Assembly (NCBI RefSeq): GCF_001577525.1
Contig: NZ_CP013015.1
Location: forward strand, 128,433-166,878
Direction: 5' to 3'
DNA: 38,446 bases
Source of the DNA: Candidatus Desulfofervidus auxilii
GTDB lineage: Bacteria; Desulfobacterota; Desulfofervidia; Desulfofervidales; Desulfofervidaceae
This document shows positions 23,489 through 37,393 of this stretch, piece after piece (the stretch's first letter is position 1; each line of letters begins with the position of its first letter). The position numbers and the translations under genes were made by a program. The notes under the pieces are model-generated. The model saw only the letters and a list, made by a program, of their open reading frames with translations, searched no databases and was not told the DNA's origin.

Positions 23489-23605
23489 GGTTGAGTATTG
23501 AAAAAAACTGCACTTTTTCTTTAAGGGACGGTCTTAAGTAGAATTCTCATGGGGGATGCGGTTTTGCAGGAGCTTTTTTGATGTTTGTCGTTTCACCTTT
23601 TAGGT

Positions 23606-23662
23606 GCAATGGCTCAATGCAGAATGCAAATTGAAAAATGCAAAATCACCTTCTGTCAAATT
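23606..23662 (+). repeat. Dispersed repeat, copy B (short)
   Basis: This 57-base stretch (GCAATGGCTCAATGCAGAAT through CTTCTGTCAAATT) matches the core of copies A and C in the same orientation as copy C, with a single difference (CACC for CGCC). The flanks do not match, so this is a partial copy. Confidence 0.8.
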
Positions 23663-26777: not shown

Positions 26778-27554
26778 TTATCTTCCAATCGGCTTATATG
26801 CCCTCACCCACATCACTGCACCAATTTCTACATCCTTACCATTAATCTTCTCTCCTTCAGTAAGGACAGCAAAGCCCCACCAGCCATCCCAAGGAATGGT
26901 ATAGGTAAAAATGCCATTGTCATCTGTGGTGATTACCTGCGTATTAAAAGTTTCAGATGGTGTTTTTATTCTATGTTTTTCATTGTAATATTCTACCTCT
27001 ACTGAAGCATGGGCTGCAGGTTTACCATTGACCAACGCCTTGCCACAAAAGGTGTTCCCAGCCCATAAACCATAGGGTCTGGTGAGAGGTAAAATTTCAG
27101 CCTTAAGGCCTACAGGTTTATTCCATCCCTCCTCCATGCCAAAGGCATTTACCACTACCTTGGTAATGTGAATGATGTACTTCTCTTCAGCTTGTTCCCA
27201 ATAGGGCTTTGGTATTACATAAAAAATATGGTCACCTGGCCTTTTAATCTTATAAGTTGCTTCCCAGGTTTTTAACCCCTTAATTTTATGTATCTTTAAA
27301 GTATCAATAAGATTGTTTCTTTTACCCATTATTACAACCCCAAATTTTTCTGGCTTCTCCATATTCATAAGGCCTTCGAGATACTCAAAAGGATGATTAA
27401 AGAGTAAATCAAGTTGGATTTGTTGGTTTTCTCCTTGCTCTACTATGTCATCTGAGGGAATGAGCATCTGAAAATGAGCCTCGGCTTTTACAATGAATAA
27501 ACATAAGAAACCCATAAACATAACCACTAAAATCTTCGTAGATACTCCTTTCAT
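26778..27554 (-). CDS. nikK: DUF4198 protein, nickel transporter component NikK-like
   Basis: This is a periplasmic accessory of ECF-type nickel transporters. A signal peptide (hydrophobic MFMGFLCLFIV) ends AEA/HF, so the mature protein would start with His, a possible metal ligand. The mature part begins HFQMLIPSDDIVEQGEN as in DUF4198 proteins. It has beta-sandwich repeats and ends VMWVRAYKPIGR. It lies downstream of nikO with its own promoter and a candidate NikR operator. The symbol rests on family and context. Binding specificity for nickel over cobalt is inferred. Confidence 0.82.
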   Translation of the reverse strand: MKGVSTKILVVMFMGFLCLFIVKAEAHFQMLIPSDDIVEQGENQQIQLDLLFNHPFEYLEGLMNMEKPEKFGVVIMGKRNNLIDTLKIHKIKGLKTWEATYKIKRPGDHIFYVIPKPYWEQAEEKYIIHITKVVVNAFGMEEGWNKPVGLKAEILPLTRPYGLWAGNTFCGKALVNGKPAAHASVEVEYYNEKHRIKTPSETFNTQVITTDDNGIFTYTIPWDGWWGFAVLTEGEKINGKDVEIGAVMWVRAYKPIGR

Positions 27555-27572: not shown

Positions 27573-27600
27573 GTATTACTTTTTTAGAAAAAGTTAACAC
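27573..27600 (-). promoter_or_regulatory. Predicted NikR operator upstream of nikK
   Basis: This is a 28-bp partly palindromic site, read on the minus strand as GTGTTA-N16-TAATAC with a T-run/A-run centre. It is 23/28 identical to the site at 30346-30373. Total length and spacing equal the classic NikR box (GTATGA-N16-TCATAC). It covers the predicted -10 of the nikK promoter. Confidence 0.7.
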
Positions 27601-27620
27601 AATAAACTTAAATTTGTCAA
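27592..27620 (-). promoter_or_regulatory. Promoter of nikK
   Basis: TTGACA (27620-27615) and TTAACT (27597-27592) are separated by 17 bases on the minus strand. The -10 lies inside the predicted NikR operator, as expected for nickel-dependent repression. Confidence 0.6.
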
Positions 27621-27651
27621 GATAAAAATGCTAATGCAAAAAGATATGTTA

Positions 27652-28308
27652 CTAAATGGATATAACGTTCAACTTACTATCTTTTAATCTGTATATGGTA
27701 TTTGTAGTCTTTTGTAATAAATCCATGTCATGGGAGGTAATAATATACGATGCAGATAAACCTTTGATGATGTCTATAATCCTCTCTCTATTCCTTTCAT
27801 CAAGGTCTGTAGTGGGTTCATCTAGAAGTAATACCTGGGGCTTCATGGAAAGCACAGTGCCTATTGCTACTAACTTCTTTTCGCCTTCTGAGAGCCTGTA
27901 GGTCACTCTATCTTCAAAACCATGTAACCCCAAGGCCGCTAAGGTGTCTTTGATAATTTTATAAATTTCATCTCTTGGTCTGCCCAGATTTAAAGGCCCA
28001 AAGGCTATATCCTCTGCCACTGTGAGAGAAAAAAGCTGATCATCTGGATTTTGAAAAACTAAGCCTATTTTTTCTCTTACTTCTTTAAAATCTTTTTCGT
28101 CTTTTCTAATCTTATCAAATATTTTAACCTCTCCCCTAACTGGTTTTAAAATACCAACTATAAGATGAAGAAGGGTGGTCTTGCCACTTCCATTGGGTCC
28201 TATTATCCCTACCTTCTCTCCTTCTTTGAGGACAAAATTAAGTCCTTTGAATACATTTTTTTCATTAGAGTAACCAAATGTAATATCTTTGAGCTCAATT
28301 GTATTCAT
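27652..28308 (-). CDS. nikO: ECF transporter ATPase NikO (CbiO type)
   Basis: This is the energy-coupling ABC ATPase of a nickel/cobalt importer. The Walker A is GPNGSGKTTLLHL, the Q-loop VFQNPDDQLF is typical of CbiO-type proteins, the signature is LSEGEKKLVAIG, Walker B is VLLLDEPTTDLD, and the H-loop is TSHDMDLL. At 218 residues it is shorter than many CbiO proteins but all catalytic motifs are present. It begins 2 bases after nikQ. Confidence 0.92.
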   Translation of the reverse strand: MNTIELKDITFGYSNEKNVFKGLNFVLKEGEKVGIIGPNGSGKTTLLHLIVGILKPVRGEVKIFDKIRKDEKDFKEVREKIGLVFQNPDDQLFSLTVAEDIAFGPLNLGRPRDEIYKIIKDTLAALGLHGFEDRVTYRLSEGEKKLVAIGTVLSMKPQVLLLDEPTTDLDERNRERIIDIIKGLSASYIITSHDMDLLQKTTNTIYRLKDSKLNVISI

Positions 28309-28310
28309 TG

Positions 28311-29060
28311 TTATTTCCAGCCAAGTGTGGCAAGAAAGCAGATGTAGATAAGGGATAAAACCAGAAATACCCTATCTTTTCCCTCCATTTTAAAGTGATA
28401 AAGTAAAGGAAATGTGCCTTTAAAACCCCTACAAACCATGGCCTTCCAAACCATTTCAGCCCTGTCAAAACTTCTTAAAATAAGATTTCCTATTAAATAG
28501 GCATAGCTTCGGTAGGTATGGATGTTTGTGCCCGGACTAAAACCCCTGAGTTTCATGGCATTGGTGAGTTTTTTGTATTCTTTATATAAAACATGGGTAT
28601 AGCGGAAGGTGAAAAATGTGAGATGCACAAGTTTATCAGGGATATGGAGGTGATGGAGTGCATGAACAATGGAAAATACAGAAGAGGTAGCAATCAGAGT
28701 AATCATAGAAAGAATGATGATATTAGATTTTAAGGTAATAAGGGCAACATATTCTATTCTATCTTTAAAAACAGTAAGAGGTCCTAAATCAAACCATGGC
28801 ACACCTCCCCCTGTAAAGGGAAGGAAGATCCAAAGAAATAGGATAAACCCATTCACAATAAGCAGGCCTTTTAAGACCTCTTTTAAATTTACCTTAGAGA
28901 CAAGGATAAGGGATAGGGGATAAAGAAAGGATATAAAAATTACAGGAAATTTATAACTAGTCGCTACTACTACAGAGAAAAAGGAGAATGTTATTATCTT
29001 TACCCGTGGATCCAGTTTGTGGATGGAGGAGTTTCCTTTAGAAAACTTCTCTTTAACCAT
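28311..29060 (-). CDS. nikQ: ECF transporter transmembrane protein NikQ (CbiQ type)
   Basis: This is the T component that couples ATP hydrolysis to the substrate-binding membrane protein. It has about five hydrophobic segments (residues about 25-60, 65-85, 110-135 and near the C-terminus). Two Ala/Arg-Gly coupling motifs are visible, AMKLRGFSPG and WKAMVCRGFKG. The N-terminus includes HKLDPRVKI, common to the family. At 249 residues it is full length. It overlaps the nikL end by 8 bases. Confidence 0.9.
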   Translation of the reverse strand: MVKEKFSKGNSSIHKLDPRVKIITFSFFSVVVATSYKFPVIFISFLYPLSLILVSKVNLKEVLKGLLIVNGFILFLWIFLPFTGGGVPWFDLGPLTVFKDRIEYVALITLKSNIIILSMITLIATSSVFSIVHALHHLHIPDKLVHLTFFTFRYTHVLYKEYKKLTNAMKLRGFSPGTNIHTYRSYAYLIGNLILRSFDRAEMVWKAMVCRGFKGTFPLLYHFKMEGKDRVFLVLSLIYICFLATLGWK

Positions 29061-29652
29061 TTTTTCTGTTTCTAAAATAGATTATAAGCCCCATAATCCC
29101 CAAGATATAACCAATCCCTGCCAAAACTTTGCTCAAAGTTGGCTTTGTTAAATCCATGGCAATTTTCTTTAAAAGCCTATAAATGGGCTGGAGCTCTTTG
29201 GAAACTTCTTCCCTGATAATCTTCCTAAGCTCATCTTCTGAAATACCTATTTTGATTTTGACCTTCTTTTCCTCTGCTCCTTTATTAAAAATGCCTTCTA
29301 ATTCAGTTTTTGGCACTATTGCCTCTGCCCTGTGGCCCATTCCAGCATTAAGGACAATTTTTAATCCTGTCATTTTAGGTGGGACAAATGAAAATTCACC
29401 ATCTGTATTTGTCTTACCCTGTAAAAGCTTTTCACCCGTGATGTTGTCGTAAACAATGATTTCACAACTTTTACATTTTTTCCCATCAGAAAAATAATTT
29501 TCTGTATTCACTTTTCCATGTTCTATATAGTAAAATGTGATAACTTTGTGGGCAAAGGCATTGGTTGTTAAAATAGAAAAAAATACCATTAAAAACAAAA
29601 ATTTTACCTGAAAATAGCCCTTTATTTGACCCTTTGTCAATTTTGCTTTCAC
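29053..29652 (-). CDS. nikL: Nickel transporter accessory NikL-like protein
   Basis: This is a membrane-anchored exported protein. A signal peptide ends AFA/HKV, so the mature N-terminus would be His, as in nikK. The exported part is a carboxypeptidase-regulatory-like beta sandwich (EIIVYDNITGEKLLQG, then DGEFSFVPPK). A helix follows, then a C-terminal membrane segment (VLAGIGYILGIMGLIIYF) and a short basic tail. This layout matches NikL, which with NikK replaces NikN in some nickel ECF systems. The start is GTG with AAGGA upstream. Confidence 0.8.
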   Translation of the reverse strand: MKAKLTKGQIKGYFQVKFLFLMVFFSILTTNAFAHKVITFYYIEHGKVNTENYFSDGKKCKSCEIIVYDNITGEKLLQGKTNTDGEFSFVPPKMTGLKIVLNAGMGHRAEAIVPKTELEGIFNKGAEEKKVKIKIGISEDELRKIIREEVSKELQPIYRLLKKIAMDLTKPTLSKVLAGIGYILGIMGLIIYFRNRKNG

Positions 29653-29719
29653 TTCATATCCTTGTTATTTATAGCAAGCCCGAATGCCAACATCCAAACG
29701 ATCCATTATACATATTGGT

Positions 29720-30337
29720 TTACACAGTTTTTTGGCTCCGTATTCTTAATACCTCTGGTTTGACCCTCCTTAGAAAGGCTATTACACTAGCAGTAATGAT
29801 ACCTTCAATAATCATAATAGGGATATGGGCCACAACTATAGCCTTGGCAGCCACTATAAAAGAACTTCCTGTAAAAACTAAAGCAGTGCCTACCAATAAG
29901 CCCGATAGAAATACAGAGACAGCCCCTGCTAAGAAGGCGCCAAAAATGGCTAATTTTGGATTTTCTCCTCTAACAGCAGGGGTAAAAATATAATAACAAA
30001 AGATAGCAGGAAAGGCCATGGTAAAGGTATTTACTCCCAATACTGTAAGACCACCGAATTGGAAGAGTATTGCCTGAAGGGTCAAAGCAACAAGAATGGC
30101 AGGAAACACAGACCAGCCCAAGATAAGACCCAAAAGACCATTTAAGATTAAATGAATACTAGATGGACCTAAAGGAATATGGATTAATGAGGCAACGAAA
30201 AAAGTTGATGTGAGAATAGCTACAAAAGGGATTCTATCATAATCCATCCTTTTTAAACCCAAACAAACTCCCCCTGCTGAAAACGAAGCACCTGCTGCTA
30301 ATACGGGCGCCGATAGGACACCCTCGGAGATATGCAT
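29720..30337 (-). CDS. nikM: ECF transporter substrate-binding membrane protein NikM
   Basis: This is the S component of the nickel importer. The mature start MHISEGVL places His2 at the N-terminus, where CbiM/NikM proteins bind the metal with their N-terminal loop, so the ATG at 30337 is chosen over a 54-base longer frame that would bury it. About six hydrophobic helices follow, with FVASLIHIPLGPSSIHLIL (further His ligands) and FQFGGLTVLGVNTFTMAFPA. The 205 residues are normal for an unfused NikM. No NikN gene is present. Confidence 0.93.
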   Translation of the reverse strand: MHISEGVLSAPVLAAGASFSAGGVCLGLKRMDYDRIPFVAILTSTFFVASLIHIPLGPSSIHLILNGLLGLILGWSVFPAILVALTLQAILFQFGGLTVLGVNTFTMAFPAIFCYYIFTPAVRGENPKLAIFGAFLAGAVSVFLSGLLVGTALVFTGSSFIVAAKAIVVAHIPIMIIEGIITASVIAFLRRVKPEVLRIRSQKTV

Positions 30338-30345
30338 TTTATTTT

Positions 30346-30373
30346 GTAATACCTTTTTGCAAAAACTTAACAC
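30346..30373 (-). promoter_or_regulatory. Predicted NikR operator upstream of nikM
   Basis: This 28-bp site reads GTGTTA-N16-TATTAC on the minus strand with a perfect palindromic core TTTTTGCAAAAA. It matches the nikK site at 23/28 positions and overlaps the -10 of the nikM promoter. It lies 8 bases before the chosen NikM start. Confidence 0.7.
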
Positions 30374-30391
30374 AATCATGGTTCTTGTCAA
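30364..30391 (-). promoter_or_regulatory. Promoter of nikMLQO
   Basis: TTGACA (30391-30386) and TAAGTT (30369-30364) are separated by 16 bases on the minus strand. The -35-to-operator spacing is 12 bases here and 14 at nikK, a shared promoter/operator design. The predicted start lies within the operator, giving a leader of about 20 bases. The remaining gap to hypF (30392-30504) holds nothing else I can identify. Confidence 0.6.
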
Positions 30392-33906: not shown

Positions 33907-34311
33907 ATGTCAAACCTAGTCCGTTTTGGAATTTGTATGAATAAAGATTTATTAAAAAATTTCGATGCTTTTCTTCGGAAGAAAGGGTTTAAAAACCGCT
34001 CGCAAGCCATTGCTCAGTGTCTTCGTGATTGCCTCTCCCAGCAATGGGAAGAAACATCCAGTAAGGAAACTACAGGAACAATTATCTTGGTTTATAATCA
34101 CGAAAAAAGGGAATTAGTTGATAATTTAATAGATTTACAACATGAGTTTGTAGGTAGTGTAGTTTCTACTCTTCATGTCCATTTAGACTCTCATAATTGT
34201 CTTGAGGTTATTGTGGTAAGGGGTAAAGCAAAGGATTTAAAAATATTGGCAAATAAATTAATCAGTGTAAAAGGTGTAAAACAAGGATATTTTAGGGTTG
34301 TTACCCCCTAA
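33907..34311 (+). CDS. nikR: Nickel-responsive repressor NikR
   Basis: NikR is a ribbon-helix-helix repressor with a C-terminal ACT-like nickel-binding domain. The N-terminal strand and helices are residues 1-45 (VRFGICMNKDLLKNFDAFL, then NRSQAIAQCLRDCL). The nickel ligands can be matched by spacing: His in LQHEFVG, then HVH 11 and 13 residues later, then Cys 19 residues later (SHNCLEV), the same spacing as His76, His87, His89 and Cys95 of E. coli NikR. The length of 134 is normal. It is the only plus-strand gene in the hydrogenase locus and probably controls nikM and nikK. Confidence 0.95.
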   Translation: MSNLVRFGICMNKDLLKNFDAFLRKKGFKNRSQAIAQCLRDCLSQQWEETSSKETTGTIILVYNHEKRELVDNLIDLQHEFVGSVVSTLHVHLDSHNCLEVIVVRGKAKDLKILANKLISVKGVKQGYFRVVTP

Positions 34312-37296: not shown

Positions 37297-37327
37297 AACA
37301 CACCCCCCCTTGCCTAAATAGCAAATT

Positions 37328-37393
37328 TTATAAAAAACGTGTTAACCCCAAAAAAAAGCTTGTGGATAATCCACAAGCCCTTCTCAAAACCAT
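37328..37393 (-). CDS. Candidate 21-residue leader peptide of the hydrogenase operon
   Basis: The ATG at 37393 is preceded by a very strong AGAGGAGGT 4 bases upstream. It opens a 21-codon frame (MVLRRACGLS...FFLGLTRFL) ending at TAA 37330-37328, 31 bases before hysB. The intrinsic terminator lies inside this frame, so a translating ribosome would block the hairpin. The last residues GLTRFL echo the hysB start MGLTRREFL. Expression is unproven. Confidence 0.5.
   Translation of the reverse strand: MVLRRACGLSTSFFLGLTRFL
37350..37378 (-). terminator. Intrinsic terminator in the hydrogenase leader
   Basis: There is a perfect 9-bp stem GCTTGTGGA/TCCACAAGC with a 3-base loop (37358-37378), followed on the minus strand by T8 (37357-37350). 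It lies 54 bases before the hysB ATG and inside the 21-codon ORF. Transcripts from the 37680-37708 promoter must pass it to reach hysBA. Confidence 0.82.

Follow-up and report, generated by a model that had tools for sequence, protein, structure and literature searches.

Predicted NikR operators upstream of nikK and nikM in Candidatus Desulfofervidus auxilii, and NikR-type boxes at [FeFe]-hydrogenase genes in a sister genus

Two near-identical 28-bp inverted repeats precede the nickel-transport genes nikK and nikM in a 38,446-nucleotide stretch of the Candidatus Desulfofervidus auxilii genome (the window), and on the strength of sequence comparisons we consider it very likely that both are operators of the nickel-responsive repressor NikR. 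In a sister genus of the same family, NikR-type boxes are found at [FeFe]-hydrogenase genes.

Results

The genes around the two sites encode an ECF-type importer, NikKMLQO, of predicted nickel specificity, of which the M, L, Q, O and K components are all present. On the minus strand the order is nikM (29720..30337; CbiM models above cut-off), nikL (29053..29652; NF058648 NikL family at 161.9 bits, cut-off 100), nikQ (28311..29060; T component of the CbiQ family, TIGR02454 above cut-off), nikO (27652..28308; transporter ATPase by TIGR01166 and related ATPase models, the best score of 196.9 bits being under the cut-off of 211.8) and nikK (26778..27554; DUF4198 protein, Pfam PF10670, E 2e-59), with hypF, hypB and hypA before this group and hypC, hypD and hypE after it. 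The name of nikK and its predicted role, that of an extra component of the nickel transporter, are taken from PMC545781. Models assigned hypC and hypA, and the other four hyp genes were read from their own sequences. The divergent neighbor of hypA is nikR (33907..34311, plus strand; NCBIfam equivalog NF003381, 167 bits against a cut-off of 105), beyond which lies a NiFeSe-type hydrogenase; nikR begins 3534 bp from the nearer site, in line with the 3.5 kb given by the initial annotation of this DNA. While nikK stands at the head of a nikKML(QO) operon in several relatives, it is the 3′-most gene of the cluster here, which accounts for its having a predicted operator of its own. A second nikK-like DUF4198 gene of the same genome (L103:1489-2307; C1:1454916-1455728) has no NikR box and adjoins the C-terminal part of an FeoB-like gene.

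Both sites were correctly placed in the initial annotation, in the gaps 5′ of nikK and of nikMLQO. On the minus strand the nikK site (27573..27600, GTGTTAACTTTTTCTAAAAAAGTAATAC) reads GTGTTAA-N14-GTAATAC and the nikM site (30346..30373, GTGTTAAGTTTTTGCAAAAAGGTATTAC) reads GTGTTAA-N14-GTATTAC, each with a T5/A5 core. Rodionov et al. (2004; PMC545781) described GTGTTAC-[N13/14]-GTAACAC as the deltaproteobacterial NikR signal and placed it before one operon for an Fe-only hydrogenase, before nikMQO and nikKMLQO, and before a nikK standing alone. Against GTGTTAC-N14-GTAACAC the window sites score 12/14 (nikK) and 11/14 (nikM), each scores 13/14 against GTRWYAC pairs, and the heptamer spacing of 14 in both is within the published range. 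The half-sites fit the PMC545781 consensus and represent no new type. The window sites share with the published box the form of a 27-28 bp inverted repeat, half-sites that are the same except at two or three positions, and a position in front of nikMQO and in front of a nikK placed apart. Both precede genes for nickel transport, and their genome has nikR. They differ from the published box in having the 14-base spacing in both sites where 13 is commoner elsewhere, an A replacing the innermost C of one half-site, a strong T5/A5 core, and two boxes within one split nik cluster. As had been stated earlier, the E. coli NikR box, GTATGA-N16-TCATAC (PMC7055735), is of the same length and spacing but has different half-sites, the window sites matching it at just 9/12 and 8/12 positions. 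The targets differ as well, an ECF-type importer in the window and NikABCDE for the E. coli box.

The window NikR has an N-terminal ribbon-helix-helix and a C-terminal NikR domain (NF003381 above cut-off, PF08753), and aligns with solved NikRs from residue 3 (2bj1) or from residue 6 (E. coli NikR, 1q5v). Its residues H79, H90, H92 and C98 line up with the nickel ligands of the solved proteins, and these three histidines and one cysteine are invariant in 22 aligned sequences. In E. coli NikR, Arg3, Thr5 and Thr7 contact bases. The DNA-contact strand reads RVTIT in that protein and RFGIC in the window NikR, a change that may be the reason for the different half-site. Residues 30-41 read NRSQAI(A/S)QCLRD in the window NikR and in those of two sister-genus genomes (G003 and G004), and approximately NRSEAIRDLIR in most of the other 19 aligned; on this alignment it is a clade-specific change in the ribbon-helix-helix domain.

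The motif was tested independently in its symmetric form, GTRWYAC-N13/14-GTRWYAC. The nikR, nikM and nikK loci of relatives (294 kb) contain 12 boxes of at least 13/14, with 11 distinct sequences, compared with 0-2 in shuffles, and those examined lie at nikR, nikM(N), nikKML and OMP-nikKML promoters. The relatives G034, G056 and G028 carry the box. The surroundings of 80 nikR genes from other genomes of many phyla yielded 35 boxes (8 in the reversed control), 13 of them perfect (none in the control). Only the spacings 13 (29 boxes, a sharp peak) and 14 (6 boxes) are enriched, the others having 0-4, and of the 35 boxes 27 are directly 5′ of nikR, nikM, nikK or nikL. Within the phylum, 17 of 395 genomes have matches to the exact consensus, five matches being directly upstream of nikM; matches in genus g68 (L111-L115) have no recognised nik genes nearby. 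From these three surveys it follows that the assignment to NikR is well founded and that the element belongs to a known class. Two boxes in relatives have other neighbors. In G034, a TonB-dependent receptor gene, whose product is a candidate outer-membrane nickel receptor, has a 13/14 box (L250:2185-2211) 63 bp upstream, and in G028 a box (L100:3213-3239) lies 14 bp before an outer-membrane-protein-like gene heading a cluster with nikK, nikM and nikL.

Could another metal regulator, of the Fur/Zur or RcnR type or some other repressor, act on the transporter through these sites? Assigning a regulator from a motif is indirect, and comparison of orthologous nik promoters gave a divided result, with the box at the nik promoters of other nikR-bearing genomes and absent from those of G003 and G004. 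We nevertheless judge this quite improbable given that the motif follows nikR genes across phyla, often directly 5′ of nikR itself, and agrees with the NikR box already published for nik genes. The NikR regulon proposed in the initial annotation is supported by a NikR with intact nickel ligands 3.5 kb away and by the same motif and spacing at the nikR and nik promoters of relatives and of other phyla.

The likeness of the two sites to each other was also examined. Aligned, they are identical at 23 of 28 positions, as first reported, and this is beyond chance, the maximum in 2000 dinucleotide-shuffle trials of both upstream regions being 22/28. Each is self-complementary at 10 of 14 positions, and palindromy by itself is not significant, with about 16% of shuffles holding an equally palindromic 28-mer. 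The short pattern GTGTTA-N16-TAWTAC used in the initial annotation proved weak as a statistic (14 window matches with up to two mismatches against 8 ± 2.6 expected), and the relaxed hexamer pair was at chance level genome-wide (15 sites, 16 in the control); hexamer-only scans were therefore not used as evidence. The full palindrome GTRTTANNTTTTTNNAAAAANNTAAYAC, with up to three mismatches, matches only the nikK and nikM sites in 2.54 Mb and nothing in the control. A duplicated AT-rich promoter segment that has no operator function could have left such a resemblance as a by-product. This would suit the AT-rich region and the unremarkable palindromy, but we regard it as very improbable, since continuous similarity between the two upstream regions ends with the 28 bp, except for a short TTGACA element, and the box recurs at nik promoters in unrelated genomes.

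Upstream of hypA/nikR, hypC and hysB, pattern scans of the window's own genome found no box scoring above 10/14, which bears out the earlier statement that hypA, hypC, nikR and hysB lack a full copy. The degenerate site upstream of hysB (37318-37345; GTGTTAA plus an A/T tract, 10/14) is not above background. The 13 further hexamer-pair sites were rejected, all being within open stretches of at least 80 codons, as was a site at 583029 inside a long open stretch, and none of the remaining sites of at least 13/14 has a T5/A5 core. A recurring element, GTTTCACCTTTTAGGTG, has near-identical copies at 524055, 646275 and 1526044 of the same genome (G000:C1) and a partial copy at 23590-23617 of the window; it is perhaps a small repeat family.

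On the minus strand, a -35-like TTGACA lies 14 nt upstream of the nikK operator (27615..27620) and another 12 nt upstream of the nikM operator (30386..30391). The nikM start is the ATG at 30337 (MHISEG) and not the TTG at 30391, with the same MHI start in orthologues, so the nikM operator ends 8 bp before the start codon; the corresponding distance for nikK is 18 bp. It had been proposed that the operators overlap the -10 regions of TTGACA promoters. The TTGACA elements are present at both genes, but a recognisable -10 is present at neither, the best hexamer reaching just 3/6 at each promoter and a promoter scan making no call at either, so the overlap is plausible by position only. The short distances to the two ATG codons would also suit a palindrome that works at the mRNA level, as a leader hairpin or a riboswitch close to the ribosome-binding site. 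We reject this reading as extremely improbable, since the stability of the predicted leader folds does not clearly exceed that of shuffles (z -1.29 and +0.97), no hairpin is common to both copies and the window has no Rfam family match.

G003 and G004 belong to the same family as the window's genome, and their NikRs are 73-74% identical to the window NikR. Their nikKMLQO operons have no NikR box upstream. Instead, searches of the genomes and of PF02906 genes showed that their [FeFe]-hydrogenase genes are preceded by NikR-type boxes, four strong and one weak. In G004 (loci L262 and L252), one box (C37:52521-52548) is just behind nikR and 11 bp before an FlpD-ferredoxin gene that is followed by a 599-aa HydA, a second (C37:55089-55116) is 25 bp before another FlpD-ferredoxin gene, and a third (C34:13155-13182) is upstream of an FlpD-HydA fusion that follows an hdr and mvhDGA cluster, these last names being read from sequence and gene order. 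In G003, boxes at L269:2705-2732 and L260:94-121 are upstream of [FeFe]-hydrogenase transcription units; a 13/14 box with a 12/14 neighbor stands 31 bp before HydA, and the weak site (12/14) stands 19 bp before the other FlpD-ferredoxin-HydA pair.

Across the PF02906 loci of nikR genomes there are 7 matches of at least 13/14 against none in the reversed control, or 6 distinct ones because one box sits in two overlapping loci. The excess disappears at 12/14 or better (14 matches, 15 in the reversed control), and the weak G003 site therefore rests on its position and its likeness to the G004 site. Matches away from promoters occur in G036, within a gene, and in G055, about 190 bp upstream of a gene. 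Strong [FeFe]-hydrogenases (E below 1e-40) are encoded in 9 of 27 genomes with nikR and in 0 of 32 without it, in a limited genome sample; the Fisher p for this association is 0.0004, on the same limited sample and with phylogeny ignored. The window's genome has no PF02906 match and no [FeFe]-hydrogenase. The suggestion in the initial annotation that only uptake is nickel-repressed fits the window's genome, as scanned by pattern, but not the sister genus.

Discussion

The model of NikR control builds on the sequence of the sites, their uniqueness in the genome, the comparative enrichment and the intact NikR. When nickel is sufficient, a nickel-loaded NikR tetramer would set one ribbon-helix-helix dimer on each GTRWYAC half-site. 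Since the operators follow TTGACA by 12-14 nt and come within 8-18 bp of the start codon, NikR on the DNA should stand in the way of RNA polymerase, so that nikMLQO and nikK would be repressed together. When nickel is scarce, NikR would release the DNA and nickel uptake would go up. Binding, its dependence on nickel, repression and the promoter positions are predictions of this model. Counting against it are the nikKMLQO operons of G003 and G004 without a box, the poor -10 hexamers, the rarer 14-base spacing and the departures from consensus at two or three positions.

The window sites belong to an already known class, and the less expected part is the difference in regulon between sister genera. 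NikR control of the periplasmic Fe-only hydrogenase (hydAB) of D. desulfuricans has been predicted (PMC545781), and in methanogens under nickel limitation Mvh is replaced at Hdr (PMC12350162). The sister-genus boxes fit the 2004 hydAB prediction and resemble the methanogen switch. G003 and G004 share with D. desulfuricans a NikR box upstream of a nickel-free hydrogenase; they differ in being other organisms and in their hydrogenase types, which are FlpD-ferredoxin plus HydA and, following an hdr-mvh cluster, an FlpD-HydA fusion. We lean toward a NikR regulon that was swapped within the family, directed at uptake in the window's genome, where [FeFe]-hydrogenase is absent, and at the [FeFe] units in G003 and G004, among them the FlpD-HydA fusion beside the hdr-mvhDGA [NiFe] cluster, where Hdr would pass from a nickel to a nickel-free hydrogenase when nickel is scarce.

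For one AT-rich lineage of the phylum the analysis provides a concrete predicted NikR regulon. The independent genomes show a wide distribution, far outside the deltaproteobacteria, of the NikR box described in 2004. Comparing the genomes suggests that NikR can move between sister genera from the control of uptake to the choice of hydrogenase isozyme. If true, the Hdr switch of G003 and G004 would be a bacterial counterpart of the methanogen response to nickel limitation, and the shift would explain how hydrogen-living anaerobes cope with scarce nickel.
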